Assembly: GCA_938035945.1 (NCBI GenBank)
Contig: CALHOU010000099.1
Coordinates: 1-64,000 of the forward strand
Direction of reading: 5' to 3'
Source: an uncultured Granulosicoccaceae bacterium
Lineage (GTDB): Bacteria; Pseudomonadota; Gammaproteobacteria; Granulosicoccales; Granulosicoccaceae
Length of the DNA stretch: 64,000 bases
The position numbers were made by a program, and so were the translations under genes. The notes under the pieces were generated by a model that had not been told where the DNA came from, did no database searches, and was given only the letters and a program-made list of their open reading frames with translations. Shown piece by piece: positions 10,295 to 44,110 of the stretch. How positions within the stretch are numbered: the first letter of the stretch is position 1; every line of letters starts with the position of its first letter.

Positions 10295-11122
10295 GTGCAA
10301 GCACCTGTAAGCGTCATTATTCCAACCCATAACCGATGCGCGTCCGTTTGCTTGGCGATTGATTCGGTGTTGGCTCAAACGCTAGCACCAACGCAAGTGA
10401 TCGTTGTGGACGATGGCTCGTCTGACGACACTTGCGCCGTTATAAGGCAACGCTTCCCTAGGGTTGAGCTTATCCAACAACAAAACCACGGTGTGTCGCA
10501 TGCACGCAATCGCGCGATAGAAATCGCAAGTTCAGACTGGGTGGCCTTTCTGGATTCAGATGATCTTTGGTTTGAAAACAAACTGCAGGTGCAAATGCAT
10601 CATATAAACGCGCACCCAGAATATAGTTTATGTCATTGTGATGAGCATTGGATTCGTAATGGTAAGCGGGTTAACCCAATGAATAAACATCAAAAGCGTG
10701 GTGGCTATATTTTTGAACACTGCTTACCACTATGTGCCATCTCACCATCGGCAACCCTTATACATAAAAAACTCTTTGACGAGATAGGCGTATTCGACGA
10801 ATCACTTCCCGCTTGCGAAGACTACGACCTGTGGCTACGCATTTGTGCGAAGCATCCAGTGTTGTATGTTGATCAGGCCTTACTTGCCAAAACCGGTGGG
10901 CATGAAGATCAGCTTTCACGAAAACATTGGGGCATGGATAGGTTCAGACTCCAAGCCTTAGCTAAACTATTGCGCAGCCAAACGCTCACCGATGAGCAAT
11001 CAACATTAGCCACTCAAACGTTTAAACATAAATACGGCATCGTGCTCAATGGCGCGATCAAGCGTGGCAACACATCATTCGTTCAAGAGCTGGAAATGCA
11101 CTACGCCGAACTTGCGCAATAG
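10295..11122 (+). CDS. Family 2 glycosyltransferase
   Basis: A 275-residue GT-A fold transferase. Motifs in order: VSVIIPTHNRC at the N-terminus, VIVVDDGSSDDT (nucleotide binding), WVAFLDSDDLWF (the DxD-like metal site) and CEDYDLWLRI (the ED of the acceptor/catalytic region). It uses a nucleotide-sugar donor; donor and acceptor are unknown. It starts at GTG with no strong Shine-Dalgarno sequence. There is no membrane helix and no neighbouring polysaccharide locus, so it may act in lipopolysaccharide core or glycoconjugate decoration. DUF6164 follows after 66 bases. Confidence 0.9.
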   Translation: MQAPVSVIIPTHNRCASVCLAIDSVLAQTLAPTQVIVVDDGSSDDTCAVIRQRFPRVELIQQQNHGVSHARNRAIEIASSDWVAFLDSDDLWFENKLQVQMHHINAHPEYSLCHCDEHWIRNGKRVNPMNKHQKRGGYIFEHCLPLCAISPSATLIHKKLFDEIGVFDESLPACEDYDLWLRICAKHPVLYVDQALLAKTGGHEDQLSRKHWGMDRFRLQALAKLLRSQTLTDEQSTLATQTFKHKYGIVLNGAIKRGNTSFVQELEMHYAELAQ

Positions 11123-11188: not shown

Positions 11189-11560
11189 ATGTCGGCACTA
11201 CTGTTTAGATTACGCAACGTTCCCGAGGACGAGGCAGATGATATTCGAGAATTAATGCAGCAACACCACATTGAAATCTATGAAACCAACGCAGGCAACT
11301 GGGGCATATCCATGCCCGGTATTTGGGTGCAAGATGAAACCGACCTGCCACGAGCTAAAGAGCTAGTCGCGCAATACCAGAAAGAACGGGCAATAGATGC
11401 GCGCAATGCCTACGAGGAAAACCGACGCCAAGGCACCGCGCCTAGTCTTATGCAAACCCTTAAACAGCGCCCATTGGCCATCGCCGGAATTTTTCTATTT
11501 TGCTTATTTGTGCTGTACGTGATGATCAGTCCGTTTGTAAAGCTTGCGATGAACGCGTAA
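11189..11560 (+). CDS. DUF6164 family membrane protein
   Basis: A 123-residue protein matching the DUF6164 pattern: an N-terminal soluble region, SALLFRLRNVPEDEADDIRELM, with ANxGxWGISMPGIWV, then a charged linker and a single C-terminal transmembrane helix (about 96-118, LAIAGIFLFCLFVLYVMI). The N-terminal fold resembles the signal-transducing DUF2007 type. It is a widely conserved gammaproteobacterial protein of unknown function. It is probably anchored to the inner membrane with the soluble part in the cytoplasm. Confidence 0.85.
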   Translation: MSALLFRLRNVPEDEADDIRELMQQHHIEIYETNAGNWGISMPGIWVQDETDLPRAKELVAQYQKERAIDARNAYEENRRQGTAPSLMQTLKQRPLAIAGIFLFCLFVLYVMISPFVKLAMNA

Positions 11561-39048: not shown

Positions 39049-39900
39049 CTATTGACGTAACCAATCATTAAATGCATCAGGCAATTTCGTTAGCTCCCCC
39101 ATTTCCGACCAGCCATTGTGCAAAGCAAGGCTTTTTATCGCCGCCACACGATCTTTACTCAATGGGTGCGTGACCGATATACGTTCCAGCCAATCCGGCA
39201 CTGCATCACTATCAGCTTTAATATCACCAATCAGTTCAAACAACACTCCAGCGCCATTAACATGGCCGTAGAGTTGATTCACCGCTGAAAGCGCTGCTGT
39301 ATCGGCTGCACTCTCCATTTGCCGAGTGAATTGCATGCCTGCTAACAAGCTCGTTTGACTAAACGCCTGTTCGGCCATACCCGAACGCCCGGTAACCATG
39401 GCAACGCCAATCGCGCTGACCACACCACCGCCTAAACCGGAAATCGGATCCCGGTGATTAATGTGCGCCATTTCGTGTGCCATGACCATCGCCAATGCGT
39501 TTTCATGCGGCATTTGCCTTAACAATTCACGATAGAACAGCAAATTGCCACCAAGGGTTGCAAAGGCGTTAAACACATCCTCTTCGCGATAATGCACTTG
39601 CACGTCAAAATCATCAATCAAATCCAAACCCGGCGCCAGCCGGTCCGCCAGATCATTAAGGTAGGTGACGATTTCTTCTGGTGCATCAGGTGTGGAAAGT
39701 GCGATATCAAATTTTTGCGATAACTGGACTTCGTACTTGAATGGGATACGTTTGGCCACCGCGCTACCAGCAAACTGAAGCACCAAAACCAGAGCCAATA
39801 GTAGAGCGACAGACGCTATAACCAAGATAGCAAACTGTTTAAGTGGATGGACTTTAGAGACATTTATCCCTTCTGGCGCTTGTTTGTTTTCGTAGCGCAT
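39049..39900 (-). CDS. Membrane-anchored M48 zinc metallopeptidase
   Basis: A 283-residue protein with one membrane helix near residues 24-50 (FAILVIASVALLLALVLVLQF) and a periplasmic peptidase domain. The catalytic motif is AMVMAHEMAHINHRDP (HExxH), with the third ligand Glu in MESAADTAAL. It resembles the BepA/LoiP group of M48 proteases that look after outer-membrane protein assembly. It is the last gene of an operon with two YbjQ-family genes, six bases from the previous one. Confidence 0.9.
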   Translation of the reverse strand: MRYENKQAPEGINVSKVHPLKQFAILVIASVALLLALVLVLQFAGSAVAKRIPFKYEVQLSQKFDIALSTPDAPEEIVTYLNDLADRLAPGLDLIDDFDVQVHYREEDVFNAFATLGGNLLFYRELLRQMPHENALAMVMAHEMAHINHRDPISGLGGGVVSAIGVAMVTGRSGMAEQAFSQTSLLAGMQFTRQMESAADTAALSAVNQLYGHVNGAGVLFELIGDIKADSDAVPDWLERISVTHPLSKDRVAAIKSLALHNGWSEMGELTKLPDAFNDWLRQ

Positions 39901-39906
39901 AATCCG

Positions 39907-40392
39907 CTACGCTCCTGGAGTTGCTGAGGGTTGATCCTGCTCCGCAGAGATTGGGTTTATCGCTGGAATCATCGCCGTACCGTAAGCCAATACTTCAATG
40001 GCCCCTAGACGTCCGGTGGCGATTCGGCTGGTTTCCAGCTTTACATTAAATACATAATTCGCGTTGTGGGCTTGCGCGTTTTGTTTCATGCGCAAAATCG
40101 CTTCGCGTCGACCTCTATCCAACATCGATTCGAACGGTGTTACACGGCCACCAAAAACATTAATCAAACCAGCAACAAATGATTTGAAGTAATCGGATGC
40201 AATCACCACCCCTCCACTGACCAACTGCTGCTGATAGACCTGATCTTGCGGCGGGTACTTCGTGGCAATGGCTGGCAATTGATTAAATTGCTCTTCCCGT
40301 TTGATGATGCTTTTATAGTGTCGTTTTTCAAAATACTTACCGAACAAGTACCCAACGACAAGCAGCAGTACAAATCCGATTACATTAATCAT
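39907..40392 (-). CDS. Membrane-anchored YbjQ-family protein
   Basis: About 161 residues from ATG 40392, overlapping the upstream YbjQ gene by eight bases (the track start is a TTG at 40401). An N-terminal helix (INVIGFVLLLVVGYLFGKYF) leads to a YbjQ-like domain whose core is INVFGGRVTPFESMLDRGRREAILRM, then NANYVFNVKLETSRI and IEVLAYGTAM. YbjQ (UPF0145) proteins form pentameric rings and were once called heavy-metal-binding; the function is open. The C-terminus is a short Pro/Ser tail. The partnership with an M48 protease and a second YbjQ suggests one envelope task. Confidence 0.87.
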   Translation of the reverse strand: MINVIGFVLLLVVGYLFGKYFEKRHYKSIIKREEQFNQLPAIATKYPPQDQVYQQQLVSGGVVIASDYFKSFVAGLINVFGGRVTPFESMLDRGRREAILRMKQNAQAHNANYVFNVKLETSRIATGRLGAIEVLAYGTAMIPAINPISAEQDQPSATPGA

Positions 40393-40708
40393 CGGCGACA
40401 ATCTCTACAGCTGTGCCGTAAACGAATATCTCCGCTGCACCCGCGGCAATACTTGATGTGCTGTAACGTACATTCAACACCGCATTCGCGCCAATTTTTT
40501 GTGCTTGCGCAAGCAATCGTTCGGTAGCTTCCTCACGAGATTCTTGCAGCAACTCGGTATATCCCAACAATTCGCCACCGAAAATATTTTTCAACGAGGC
40601 CATGATGTCGCGCCCGACGTGTTTGGAGCGCACAGAACTGCCCTGCACCAGGCCCAAATGGCGCACGATGCGGTGATTAGGCAAAATTTCTAAATTACTG
40701 ATAAGCAT
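40385..40708 (-). CDS. YbjQ family (UPF0145) protein
   Basis: A 107-residue complete YbjQ protein: NHRIVRHLGLVQGSSVRSKHVG at the N-terminus, SLKNIFGGELLGYTELLQESRE, AQKIGANAVLNVRYSTS and a final EIFVYGTAVEI. It is soluble, and the fold assembles as a pentamer in homologues. It is the first gene of the three-gene operon YbjQ, membrane YbjQ, M48 peptidase; the second gene starts before this one stops. It is divergent from the nucleosidase gene across 75 bases. Confidence 0.93.
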   Translation of the reverse strand: MLISNLEILPNHRIVRHLGLVQGSSVRSKHVGRDIMASLKNIFGGELLGYTELLQESREEATERLLAQAQKIGANAVLNVRYSTSSIAAGAAEIFVYGTAVEIVADD

Positions 40709-40783: not shown

Positions 40784-41590
40784 ATGCCATCAATTTGTTT
40801 AATCACAGCGCTCCCAGCTGAAGCCCGTCCGCTAATTACCTACTTTGGTATGCGGGCCATTGGGCACTCGCATTTGCGGCTTCATCAGGGCGAATCTGCA
40901 TACCTACTGCAATGTGGCGTTGGCAAACTCAATGCCGCAGCACGCACCGCGGCCATGTTGCAAAGTTTGCCAGACGTTGTTGCAATCATTAACGTTGGCA
41001 TAGCCGGTAGTGACCGGACCTTGGGCGAGACGCTGCTTGCCCACGGGGTTCAGGACCAAGCTAGCGCTCAACAATGGTTCCCTCATTTGCCAGCGGTGAA
41101 CCGCTTGCCGGATGTGGCGTCAATTCAGGTGTGCACTGTCGACAAACCGTCTAGCAACTATACGCAAGAGCTTGCATTCGATATGGAAGCCTCCGGTATT
41201 TTCAACGCGGCTAGCAAAGTACTCGATTTAGCATTTGTGCACTGTGTAAAAGTGGTTTCAGATAATGCTGAATCGACGCTAGACACCATTACAGCCAAAA
41301 GCGCATCAGCCAGTATAAAAGAGGCAATTCCTACAGTGGAAAAGCTGATGCATGCTTTGCCTTTCGATGCATTGCCAAGCACAAGCGCTGTTGAGGCATT
41401 AAGCCACGCACTCACTAACCGAGTGCATTACACCGCTACCGAGCGCCATAGTCTCAAGCAACTGTTGCATCGATACAATGCCTTGTTTAACGAAGTACCA
41501 AATGCCCAAGCGTTGGAGAAATACAACAATGCGAAAGATATAAGAAAAATGTTGCTATCTAAAATAGACAGCGCAGCTGTGACTTACTAA
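40784..41590 (+). CDS. MTAN-like nucleosidase (PNP/UDP phosphorylase superfamily)
   Basis: A 268-residue protein whose first about 190 residues match the nucleoside phosphorylase/hydrolase fold: LITALPAEARPLI (Glu13 at the position of MTAN Glu12), IINVGIAGS, and ELAFDMEASGIF followed by VKVVSDNAES, which carry the catalytic Glu and Asp of 5'-methylthioadenosine/SAH nucleosidases. The C-terminal about 65 residues are an extra charged helical tail. MTANs also cleave 5'-deoxyadenosine, the by-product of radical SAM enzymes. The next gene, 26 bases on, is a radical SAM protein, so by-product removal is an attractive inference. Confidence 0.85.
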   Translation: MPSICLITALPAEARPLITYFGMRAIGHSHLRLHQGESAYLLQCGVGKLNAAARTAAMLQSLPDVVAIINVGIAGSDRTLGETLLAHGVQDQASAQQWFPHLPAVNRLPDVASIQVCTVDKPSSNYTQELAFDMEASGIFNAASKVLDLAFVHCVKVVSDNAESTLDTITAKSASASIKEAIPTVEKLMHALPFDALPSTSAVEALSHALTNRVHYTATERHSLKQLLHRYNALFNEVPNAQALEKYNNAKDIRKMLLSKIDSAAVTY

Positions 41591-41615
41591 CGGCGCAAGG
41601 ATAGCTCGCATACTA

Positions 41616-42608
41616 ATGGACACGATTTACATAGAGCGCGACGTACTTTCACTTTCCCGCACACAAAACATTCTGAGTCGCTATCCGAATGCACGACATG
41701 TGTTGGTTGATCGTTACACCGATGTGTTTAACGCGCCTGCACAAAACTTTAGAGTACAAAAAAGAAATCCTGCGTTAATACTTGCGCACAAACACGGCAA
41801 TCGAGTGATCGAAACGCCACCGGGTTATCACATTGGTGGTGAAAACAACTACTACTTTTCACACATGCTCAATTGCATCTATGACTGCCGTTATTGTTTT
41901 TTGCAAGGCATGTATCGCTCTGCAAACTACGTTGTGTTTGTTAACTACGACGACTTCTTCGAGGACATCAAACGCACAACCGATCTCAATTCATCGCCAA
42001 GCTGGTTTTTTTCAGGCTACGACTGCGACTCACTCGCACTGGAACCCATGACTCGATTCATCGAAACTTGCCTGGACAATTTCAGTATGACGCCCAAGGC
42101 CAATTTGGAAATTCGAACCAAAAGTACGCAAATTAGAAACTTGCTCGCACGACCCGCGCTAGACAACTGTGTTATTGCTTACAGCCTATCGCCAGAAGAA
42201 GTTGTGAGCGCCGAAGAACACAAAACGCCAAGCTTAGCGAAGCGAATTTCTGCGCTTAAATCCTTACAGGATCATGGTTGGCATATAGGCTTACGATTCG
42301 ACCCGTTATTAAAAGCTGACAACTACCAACAACTCTACAGTGACTTATTTGAGCAAGTATTTAAAGAACTCAACCGATCCGCCATCCACTCGGTTAGCCT
42401 AGGTCCGTTTCGATTACCGAAACAGTTTTTCAAAAAAATGATCAGGCTGTATCCAGAGTCAAAGTTGCTGGCGGCGAGCACTAACATGCGCGATAACATG
42501 TTGTCCTACGATGAACAAACCGAATCCAGCTTGTTAAATTTTTGCGAGACTCGGTTGCAAGACTACATAACCCCCGACCAGTACTTCCCCTGCGTTAGCG
42601 TGTCATGA
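41616..42608 (+). CDS. SplB-like (spore photoproduct lyase family) radical SAM protein
   Basis: A 330-residue radical SAM enzyme. The cluster-binding CxxxCxxC is LNCIYDCRYCFLQGMY, preceded by HIGGENNYYFSHM; the surroundings match the spore photoproduct lyase family rather than CxxxCxxC enzymes in general. KANLEIRTKSTQIRN and IAYSLSPEEVV agree. SplB reverses a thymine photoproduct in Bacillus spores; this organism type does not sporulate, so the substrate here is unknown, though DNA or nucleotide repair is conceivable. It overlaps the SDR gene by four bases (ATGA) and follows the nucleosidase by 26 bases. Confidence 0.9.
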   Translation: MDTIYIERDVLSLSRTQNILSRYPNARHVLVDRYTDVFNAPAQNFRVQKRNPALILAHKHGNRVIETPPGYHIGGENNYYFSHMLNCIYDCRYCFLQGMYRSANYVVFVNYDDFFEDIKRTTDLNSSPSWFFSGYDCDSLALEPMTRFIETCLDNFSMTPKANLEIRTKSTQIRNLLARPALDNCVIAYSLSPEEVVSAEEHKTPSLAKRISALKSLQDHGWHIGLRFDPLLKADNYQQLYSDLFEQVFKELNRSAIHSVSLGPFRLPKQFFKKMIRLYPESKLLAASTNMRDNMLSYDEQTESSLLNFCETRLQDYITPDQYFPCVSVS

Positions 42609-43315
42609 GAACGGTTCTTGTCACCGGACATTCGAAAGGCATAGGCTTGGCAGCCACAAAAACCTTACTCAGTGCAGGGCATAGCGTTATCGGCGTGTCA
42701 CGTTCACGCATCGATACGCAATCAAACCTGTATCAGCACAGTGCCGATCTATCAGAGCTCGCCACAACCAGCGATCTTGCAAAGCAAATGCAAACTGATT
42801 CAGCTTTGGCAGCACCTTTTGCCAAGCTCGATGCAGTTGTTTGCAATGCCGGTTCCGGTCAATTTGGCGCTTTGGAAAATTTCTCAGCCTTGCAAATTGA
42901 ACAAAGCATTCACCTTAACCTTATAAGCCCATTGATCCTGCTTAGGTCACTTATTCCATCGCTGCGCAAACAGGCCAGAAGCGACATCATTTTTATTGCA
43001 TCTGAATCCGCCGTGCAAGCCGGTCGATTCGGCAGCGTGTACAGCGCGGCCAAATTTGGACTACGTGGAGCCGCTCAGGCGCTACGTGCTGAGTGCGCCA
43101 GTGCTAATTGTCATGTTGGTATTATCAACCCTGGCATGGTCAGGACCGACTTTTTCAATGAGCTTGCGTTCGAACCAGGCAACGCTGAACAACACGCTCT
43201 GCAAGCAGACGATGTTGCCAACGCGGTTATGAGTATGTTGCATTCTCCTGATAACGCTGTGCTGGAAGAAATTAACCTCCGGCCACTGCAACATGTTGTA
43301 CAAAAGAAATCATGA
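42605..43315 (+). CDS. SDR-family NAD(P)-dependent oxidoreductase
   Basis: A 236-residue short-chain dehydrogenase. Cofactor motif TGHSKGIGLA near the N-terminus, structural CNAG, the catalytic Ser in IASESA and the Tyr/Lys pair in YSAAKFGLRG, then NPGMVRTDF. Complete and of standard length. The substrate is unknown. It starts inside the stop of the SplB-like gene (ATGA) and its own stop overlaps the start of the 58-aa ORF in the same way, so the three are translationally coupled and probably act in one pathway. Confidence 0.92.
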   Translation: MRTVLVTGHSKGIGLAATKTLLSAGHSVIGVSRSRIDTQSNLYQHSADLSELATTSDLAKQMQTDSALAAPFAKLDAVVCNAGSGQFGALENFSALQIEQSIHLNLISPLILLRSLIPSLRKQARSDIIFIASESAVQAGRFGSVYSAAKFGLRGAAQALRAECASANCHVGIINPGMVRTDFFNELAFEPGNAEQHALQADDVANAVMSMLHSPDNAVLEEINLRPLQHVVQKKS

Positions 43316-43488
43316 GCAATATCCTGCCGTTTAAAAAGAAGAAGCCGAGCGGCGGCAATATCATGTGCAAAAACAATCACCATAAATGGAAGATTATAAA
43401 AGAACAACAGTTCGATGTTAAGTTGGGACACCTAGTAACCGTGGAGCAATGCACACGGTGCAAAAAGAAACGTAATCGTTTGACTTAG
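43312..43488 (+). CDS. 58-aa basic protein with C..H..CxxC pattern (not in the ORF track)
   Basis: A small ORF whose ATG overlaps the SDR stop as ATGA. The sequence is strongly basic (KKKK near the start, CKKKRNR at the end) and has Cys19, His23, His24 and a CTRC pair at residues 47-50 separated by a beta-like stretch, suggesting a small zinc ribbon. The coupling to three upstream genes and the orderly cysteines argue that it is real. It might bind nucleic acid or serve as an accessory subunit; no family was recognised. Confidence 0.7.
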   Translation: MSNILPFKKKKPSGGNIMCKNNHHKWKIIKEQQFDVKLGHLVTVEQCTRCKKKRNRLT

Positions 43489-43543: not shown

Positions 43544-44110
43544 TTGGGCATTCTAACAATAGAGCCATTTCCAACTCTCACAACCAACAGACTAGTGTTG
43601 CGCAAGGCAACACTCAAAGACGCAGCCGACTATCACAAAATTCTATCTTGCCCAGAAACATCACAGTACTCTGACGTACCGCACCAACCTACCGTAAAGC
43701 GCAGTGAACGTTTTGTTAGCTACATGTCAAAGTTGCACCCTCGTAAAACCGGTGTTGGCTGGATCATTACATCGCGTGAAGATCAATCCATTCTTGGCGG
43801 TATTCGTATAAACAGTATTGAAAAGAAAACCAAATGCGGTGTGATCGGCTATGAATTGCATCCTGATCACTGGAATAAAGGGTACGCCACTGACGCCCTG
43901 CACACTGTGGTTGATTATGCGCATAACGTACTGGCATTAAACCGATTAGAAGCTTGGGCAAACGAGGAAAATGTAGCGTCCGAAAAAGTGTTGTTAAAAA
44001 ACGGCTTTCAGCATGAAGGGACTCAGCGTGACAAAGTGTGGTTTAGAGATCAATTTTGGACGGTTCGGTTATATGGACGATTAGCCAGCGATGAAGTACC
44101 GAACCGCTAA
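43544..44110 (+). CDS. GNAT N-acetyltransferase (RimJ/RimL type)
   Basis: A 188-residue acetyltransferase of the acetyltransf_3 branch. N-terminal TLTTNRLVLRKATLKDAADYHKIL, then VIGYELHPDHWNKGYATDAL with the acetyl-CoA loop and NRLEAWANEENVASEKVLLKNGF plus the final F.HEG, matching ribosomal-protein N-terminal acetyltransferases and relatives. The start is TTG 43544, preceded by AAAGGGA at a good distance; there is no ATG near it. It follows the small CxxC ORF by 55 bases, so it may belong to the same transcript. Confidence 0.9.
   Translation: MGILTIEPFPTLTTNRLVLRKATLKDAADYHKILSCPETSQYSDVPHQPTVKRSERFVSYMSKLHPRKTGVGWIITSREDQSILGGIRINSIEKKTKCGVIGYELHPDHWNKGYATDALHTVVDYAHNVLALNRLEAWANEENVASEKVLLKNGFQHEGTQRDKVWFRDQFWTVRLYGRLASDEVPNR

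Follow-up and report, generated by a model that had tools for sequence, protein, structure and literature searches.

A nucleosidase and a spore photoproduct lyase-like radical SAM enzyme at the core of a co-inherited enzyme set in Gammaproteobacteria

What does a relative of spore photoproduct lyase (SPL, SplB) do in a non-sporulating bacterium, next to a nucleosidase and a reductase? The question is raised by 64,000 nucleotides of DNA from an uncultured Granulosicoccaceae bacterium (GenBank assembly GCA_938035945.1, contig CALHOU010000099.1, positions 1 to 64,000), here called the window, in which a four-gene operon had been predicted from the sequence and proposed to form an undescribed pathway of DNA or nucleotide repair or modification. 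The operon forms the core of an enzyme set that is inherited together and occurs in about one-seventh of the gammaproteobacterial genomes sampled: a nucleosidase and an SPL-like radical S-adenosylmethionine (SAM) enzyme, usually accompanied by a short-chain dehydrogenase/reductase (SDR) and a family 2 glycosyltransferase (GT2). The loose annotation 'SPL-like protein in a non-sporulating bacterium' is replaced by a defined set of enzymes with testable chemistry.

The operon and the co-inherited set

Open reading frames (ORFs) and Pfam matches agree with the predicted operon, all four genes of which lie on the forward strand. The first (40784-41590) encodes a nucleosidase of the PNP/MTAN superfamily (268 amino acids (aa); PF01048, PNP_UDP_1, 9e-8), the second (41616-42608) the SPL-like radical SAM enzyme (330 aa; SPL family PF20903, 2e-19, over the cut-off), the third (42605-43315) the SDR (236 aa; PF00106, adh_short, 8e-36), and the fourth (43312-43488) a zinc-ribbon-like cysteine protein of 58 aa (C19, C47xxC50) with no family above cut-off. 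The predicted ATGA overlaps of the last three genes are present at 42605-42608 and 43312-43315, but the gap between the nucleosidase gene and the SPL-like gene is 25 bases rather than 26. A search of the window for RNA families gave no match. The original prediction missed the GT2 gene (10295-11122, forward strand), which is unlinked in the window genome, about 30 kb away; its 275-aa product matches the profile of the set at 3.9e-128 and PF00535 (Glycos_transf_2) at 102.4 bits, over the curated cut-off of 23.3, and it is assigned as the fourth member of the conserved set.

When genome contigs were scanned once with the radical SAM protein, 47 loci were found at 37-78% identity; they come from Granulosicoccaceae, other Gammaproteobacteria including Methylococcales, marine Alphaproteobacteria, one Waddliaceae bin and one Clostridiales bin. 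Beside the SPL-like gene, and in the same order, the nucleosidase is found in 39 of these loci and the SDR in 34; GT2 stands immediately upstream of the nucleosidase in 18, and the fullest arrangement, GT2-nucleosidase-SPL-SDR, recurs in many lineages. Proteins similar to the 58-aa protein were found in only five of the 47 loci, all from Granulosicoccaceae (L002-L005 and L010; loci are given L numbers and genomes G numbers), and for this reason it is placed outside the conserved set, as a local addition in that family. The expectation that all four operon genes would co-occur elsewhere is therefore borne out, in recurrent order and far beyond chance, for the nucleosidase, the SPL-like enzyme and the SDR, but not for the 58-aa protein; the three are found in this order in Gammaproteobacteria, in some Alphaproteobacteria and in Waddliaceae.

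Co-occurrence was assessed in 369 gammaproteobacterial genomes, with a threshold of E <= 1e-20 for the SPL profile. This profile matched 62 genomes, 49 of them with proteins of the window type (E < 1e-130) and 13 with other subtypes (1e-33 to 1e-49), which corresponds to about 13% of the sample for the window type and 17% when the two further SPL-like subtypes are included; the nucleosidase profile matched 58 genomes and the GT2 profile 59. The pairwise overlaps of SPL-like enzyme, nucleosidase and GT2 amount to 56, 57 and 54 genomes, with Fisher p values of 1e-54 to 1e-58 (uncorrected for relatedness), and all three are present in 52. The nucleosidase profile has no match in any genome that lacks both the SPL-like enzyme and GT2, and two genomes combine nucleosidase and GT2 without giving an SPL match, both from assemblies in many fragments (580 and 670 contigs). 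When absent from the SPL locus, the nucleosidase is encoded elsewhere in 15 of 16 genomes, a count that takes in the window genome and two controls. The pairwise distances within one family correlate with those within another (r 0.75-0.89, exceeding all 500 permutations). Among Alphaproteobacteria, only 5 of 240 genomes had a match. With regard to phage origin, a scan of viral contigs with the SPL profile, performed by short peptide patterns, found no relative.

The distance of GT2 from the operon in the window genome and the poor conservation of the 58-aa protein might suggest that these genes are neighbours by chance and have no common function. This is refuted by the co-occurrence data: gene order is conserved across lineages, unlinked copies co-occur, the families diverge in a correlated manner, and one gene fusion (described below) joins members of the set. 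The claim that the pathway is undescribed agrees with a literature search, most subscription journals being outside it, that found no account of the set and no paper in which SPL is linked to a nucleosidase, GT2 and SDR, or to a specific tRNA modification. Each of the protein superfamilies is known; their combination as a set appears to be undescribed.

Properties and variants of the proteins

The assignment of the second gene to an SplB-like radical SAM enzyme is upheld by its PF20903 match, a complete radical SAM motif and a full-length SPL fold. The CxxxCxxC motif for the [4Fe-4S] cluster (C87/C91/C94) is invariant across 23 SPL-like sequences, and the structural model (pLDDT 90.9) matches SPL structures over their full length, with TM scores up to 0.85 and no comparable match among non-SPL radical SAM structures. 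In a hidden Markov model alignment with SPL, for which we assigned the SPL residue numbers from the aligned letters, C87/C91/C94 coincide with the cluster cysteines, and Lys and Ser are conserved at SAM-binding positions; Tyr135 falls at Cys140, C137 at Ser142 and F95 at Tyr98. Unlike SPL, the protein thus lacks the hydrogen-donating cysteine (Cys140 in Gt, Cys141 in Bs), which is replaced by Tyr in the window-type subfamily and by Gln or Glu in two others, and has Phe in place of the radical-relay tyrosine (Tyr98 in Gt, Tyr99 in Bs), a position occupied in its relatives mostly by Phe or Ser and in a few by Tyr. A motif scan of 97 distinct relatives found (Y/H)DxD, QxSD or ELGD at the place of Cys140 in all but three, and in these the pattern had mis-hit an upstream motif (L005 and L031 read YDCDSL in the alignment; the third is L194). 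The score against the SPL equivalog TIGR04070 is 90.7 bits (cut-off 400), and the gene partners also differ from those of SPL.

These residues bear on the proposal of DNA or nucleotide repair, in which the SPL-like enzyme would reverse lesions caused by UV or alkylation, the task of SplB in spores. The fold, the complete motif and the SAM-binding residues would suit such a role, and the loss of Cys140 argues against SPL activity without disproving it, because C137, two residues from Tyr135 and found in nearly all window-type proteins, could be the hydrogen donor, and because the cysteine of Clostridium SPL is differently placed (PMC5368176, where the roles of Cys140/141 and the tyrosines in SPL are also described). 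However, Tyr98 is mostly lost as well, repair by SPL has no role for GT2, SDR or nucleosidase, and the operonic neighbours include no repair gene. Biosynthesis or modification agrees better with the presence of GT2 and a carbonyl reductase and is preferred, and repair, the first half of the original proposal, is considered very improbable. In the type 2 and type 3 SPL-like proteins described below (L171, L173, L175 and L157-L169), a Cys-Cys-Asn motif that is absent from the window type is conserved 12-10 residues before the first cluster cysteine; it might provide a hydrogen donor there, like the displaced cysteine of Clostridium SPL.

The nucleosidase has three catalytic-type residues, E13, E135 and D160, that are invariant across 22 sequences and that we take to be the equivalents of Glu12, Glu174 and Asp197 of MTAN (E. 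coli numbering). The structures matching its AlphaFold model (pLDDT 91.7) are MTAN, futalosine hydrolase and the chlamydial CT263 protein. It shares the fold and the Glu/Glu/Asp set with MTAN (Pfs), but differs in its middle region, in a family-specific C-terminal helical domain (about residues 188-268) and in its tie to the SPL-like enzyme and GT2. Its scores lie below the NCBIfam equivalog cut-offs for MTAN (NF004079, 30.5 versus 169 bits; TIGR01704, 19.2 versus 73.8) and below that of its top NCBIfam match, futalosine hydrolase TIGR03664 (39 versus 124.7 bits); HpnG (TIGR03468) is absent among matches up to E = 1. Because defining features that were tested are missing, the nucleosidase and the radical SAM protein are both placed at superfamily level only, the former not being filed as MTAN nor the latter as SPL. 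In the window genome (86% complete), no canonical MTAN was identified; an S-methylthioinosine phosphorylase was, and a 542-aa ORF resembles AMP nucleosidase by size. In the SDR, the tetrad N105-S133-Y146-K150 is invariant and G8, I13 and G14 of the glycine-rich cofactor motif are nearly so; an invariant R33 suggests NADPH as the cofactor.

Two further subtypes of the SPL-like protein have different partners. Type 2 proteins (411-476 aa) are paired with a nucleosidase that is short, at about 200 aa, and has no C-terminal domain. Type 3 proteins (373-396 aa) come from three genomes, all of one family, whose GT2 bears a nucleosidase-like domain (about residues 1-215) fused to its N-terminus (L172:5728-7209, L174:5278-6762 and L176:2564-4066, all on the reverse strand). 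The fusion is real at the sequence level; its nucleosidase-like domain matches PNP_UDP_1 weakly, just under the cut-off, and carries DMEA and MISDE/MISDD motifs. The SDR of this set was not found in the three type 3 genomes, where an aldo/keto reductase gene directly follows the SPL gene. Because two unrelated carbonyl reductases occupy the same place, the constant feature after SPL seems to be a carbonyl reductase, which suggests that carbonyl reduction belongs to the pathway.

In two genomes, G051 and G295 (of another genus), the catalytic half of the nucleosidase has decayed, in genes located between GT2 and the SPL-like gene (L177:5253-5906 and L178:4896-5558, both on the forward strand), whereas the C-terminal helical domain, GT2 and the SPL-like enzyme are kept. 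The retention of this domain where the catalytic half has decayed suggests that it has a role of its own. Its resemblance to the N-terminal domain of type 2 SPL-like proteins was rejected as a look-alike motif that is not significant (best HMMER E 0.002 in a tiny set; hhalign P 0.03), and long open frames in G145, G196 and G264 that resembled nucleosidase-SPL fusions proved to be two genes in different frames.

Proposed chemistry and its alternatives

The best explanation found for the set, with a probability of roughly 0.35, is a four-step pathway of adenosyl transfer, to an acceptor that is not a hopanoid, by which a molecule is made or modified. The SPL-like enzyme would cleave SAM and move the 5'-deoxyadenosyl group onto an unsaturated acceptor; the MTAN-like enzyme would strip adenine from the adduct to leave a 5-substituted 5-deoxyribose; the SDR, or the aldo/keto reductase in one lineage, would reduce the exposed C1 carbonyl to give an alditol; and GT2 would attach a sugar. 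The nucleosidase is consistent with such a role, in that it keeps E13, E135 and D160 while other parts are remodelled and a further helical domain is present. If adenosyl transfer is true, the radical chemistry of SPL-type enzymes is of two kinds, and the hopanoid side-chain pathway has a convergent relative that works on another acceptor.

In that hopanoid pathway, HpnH attaches 5'-deoxyadenosyl to diploptene and HpnG then takes off adenine, which yields ribosylhopane; a reductase step leads to bacteriohopanetetrol, and HpnI adds N-acetylglucosamine (PMC12583986). The common elements are a radical SAM enzyme, an enzyme of the nucleoside phosphorylase superfamily and a glycosyltransferase, with a reduction expected between (PMC12583986), but here the radical SAM enzyme is of SPL type rather than HpnH type, the nucleosidase is unmatched to HpnG, and squalene-hopene cyclase is mostly missing. 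The pairing of an adenosylating radical SAM enzyme with an adenine-removing nucleosidase is also the principle of MqnE and futalosine hydrolase in menaquinone synthesis, from which this set differs by a score far under the cut-off, by another radical SAM family and by the additional GT2 and SDR.

Several observations weigh against the four-step pathway. To our knowledge, adenosyl transfer by an SPL-type enzyme has not been reported. The decayed nucleosidase of G051 and G295 fits poorly with obligatory removal of adenine, unless another enzyme substitutes for it, and several lineages lack the SDR, GT2 or both, so the third and fourth steps would not be universal.

The main rival, which is serious and possible although it does not reach the same likelihood, is dedicated clearance: the SPL-like enzyme would use SAM as an oxidant or catalyst, the nucleosidase would hydrolyse the resulting inhibitory 5'-deoxyadenosine, as the original prediction had it, and the SDR and GT2 would independently process the main product. 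The lack of an identified canonical MTAN in the window genome suits this explanation, and under it the loss of the catalytic half in two genomes is easier to tolerate. 5'-Deoxyadenosine is an inhibitor of radical SAM enzymes and a substrate of nucleosidases (PMC6079011, PMC8102628). However, SPL itself regenerates SAM during its catalytic cycle (PMC5368176), and the set shares with 5-deoxyribose salvage clusters (PMC6079011) a link to radical SAM by-products but lacks their kinase, isomerase and aldolase. Why a nucleosidase-like domain should be fused to GT2 is hard to see if its task is waste disposal. Clearance is further weakened because about 300 of the gammaproteobacterial genomes sampled have neither the SPL-like enzyme nor this nucleosidase, though such genomes carry other radical SAM enzymes, e.g., LipA and BioB.

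Biosynthesis of a small molecule or glycoconjugate is another candidate, though rather unlikely, in which the substrate of the SPL-like enzyme would be a sugar nucleotide, a nucleoside or a lipid-linked precursor, and GT2 would attach the product to a surface polysaccharide or make a soluble glycoside. The PDB structures nearest to GT2 are chondroitin synthase and other polysaccharide transferases, and pathways of this sort often include SDRs and aldo/keto reductases. However, no recurrent polysaccharide locus, transporter or regulator was seen among the neighbouring genes, and in some genomes the set is scattered (over four contigs in G097), unlike a typical biosynthetic cluster. Because the genes are often either scattered in this way or operonic with housekeeping genes, without such recurrent partners, a housekeeping-type modification or cofactor seems more fitting than a secondary metabolite.

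Neighbouring genes and the possible acceptor

If the four-step pathway operates, its acceptor might be an RNA nucleoside, which is put forward as a guess, and a weak one. Genes of RNA modification or processing account for six of about 57 immediate same-strand neighbour clusters, in separate lineages: TmcA-like, DusA, TrmO, RlmD, RNase PH and RsmI. It weighs against RNA that this enrichment (p about 0.003-0.007 on an assumed background of 2.5-3%) is for a category picked post hoc, and that no RNA-binding part was recognised in the proteins of the set. The more specific version, in which an SPL-type enzyme grafts 5'-deoxyadenosyl onto a nucleobase of RNA or another macromolecule, where it is cut down to a branch derived from ribose and then reduced and glycosylated, across many gammaproteobacterial families, is doubtful. 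The TmcA-like proteins (600-617 aa), encoded directly upstream of GT2 at L177:2585-4420, L178:2268-4070 and L179:2081-3934, score under the NCBIfam cut-off for the (halophile) TmcA model. Three tRNA genes were found near a total of 60 loci, without pattern. Dihydrouridine made by DusA (D20), which the DusA neighbour had suggested as the substrate, was excluded because at least ten near-complete genomes with the set have no DusA over the cut-off and because G153 does not match the model at all.

Hopene was rejected as a general acceptor, since 57 of the 70 genomes examined have no hopene cyclase over the cut-off; the other 13 do, and squalene-hopene cyclase had no match in the window genome at its 86% completeness. 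The SDR is missing from 11 of the 13 cyclase-positive genomes (G011, G066, G119, G196, G198, G235, G302, G380, G392, G393 and G394) and from 14 of the 57 others (p 1e-4, confounded by lineage); the ribosylhopane reductase could stand in for it, or shared ancestry could account for the pattern. Methylococcales typically make hopanoids, and their loci possess the SDR.

Other neighbours are conserved more locally. A DUF6164 protein is encoded directly downstream of GT2 in the window (11189-11560, forward strand), and this neighbour is kept in 11 GT2-listed loci, some overlapping. Downstream of the 58-aa gene is a GNAT acetyltransferase gene (43544-44110, forward strand) that is also found in L002-L005; none was seen with the set outside Granulosicoccaceae. 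On the other side, the operon is adjoined by divergent genes for two YbjQ-like proteins and an M48 peptidase (39049-40708, reverse strand), which are kept in many Granulosicoccaceae.

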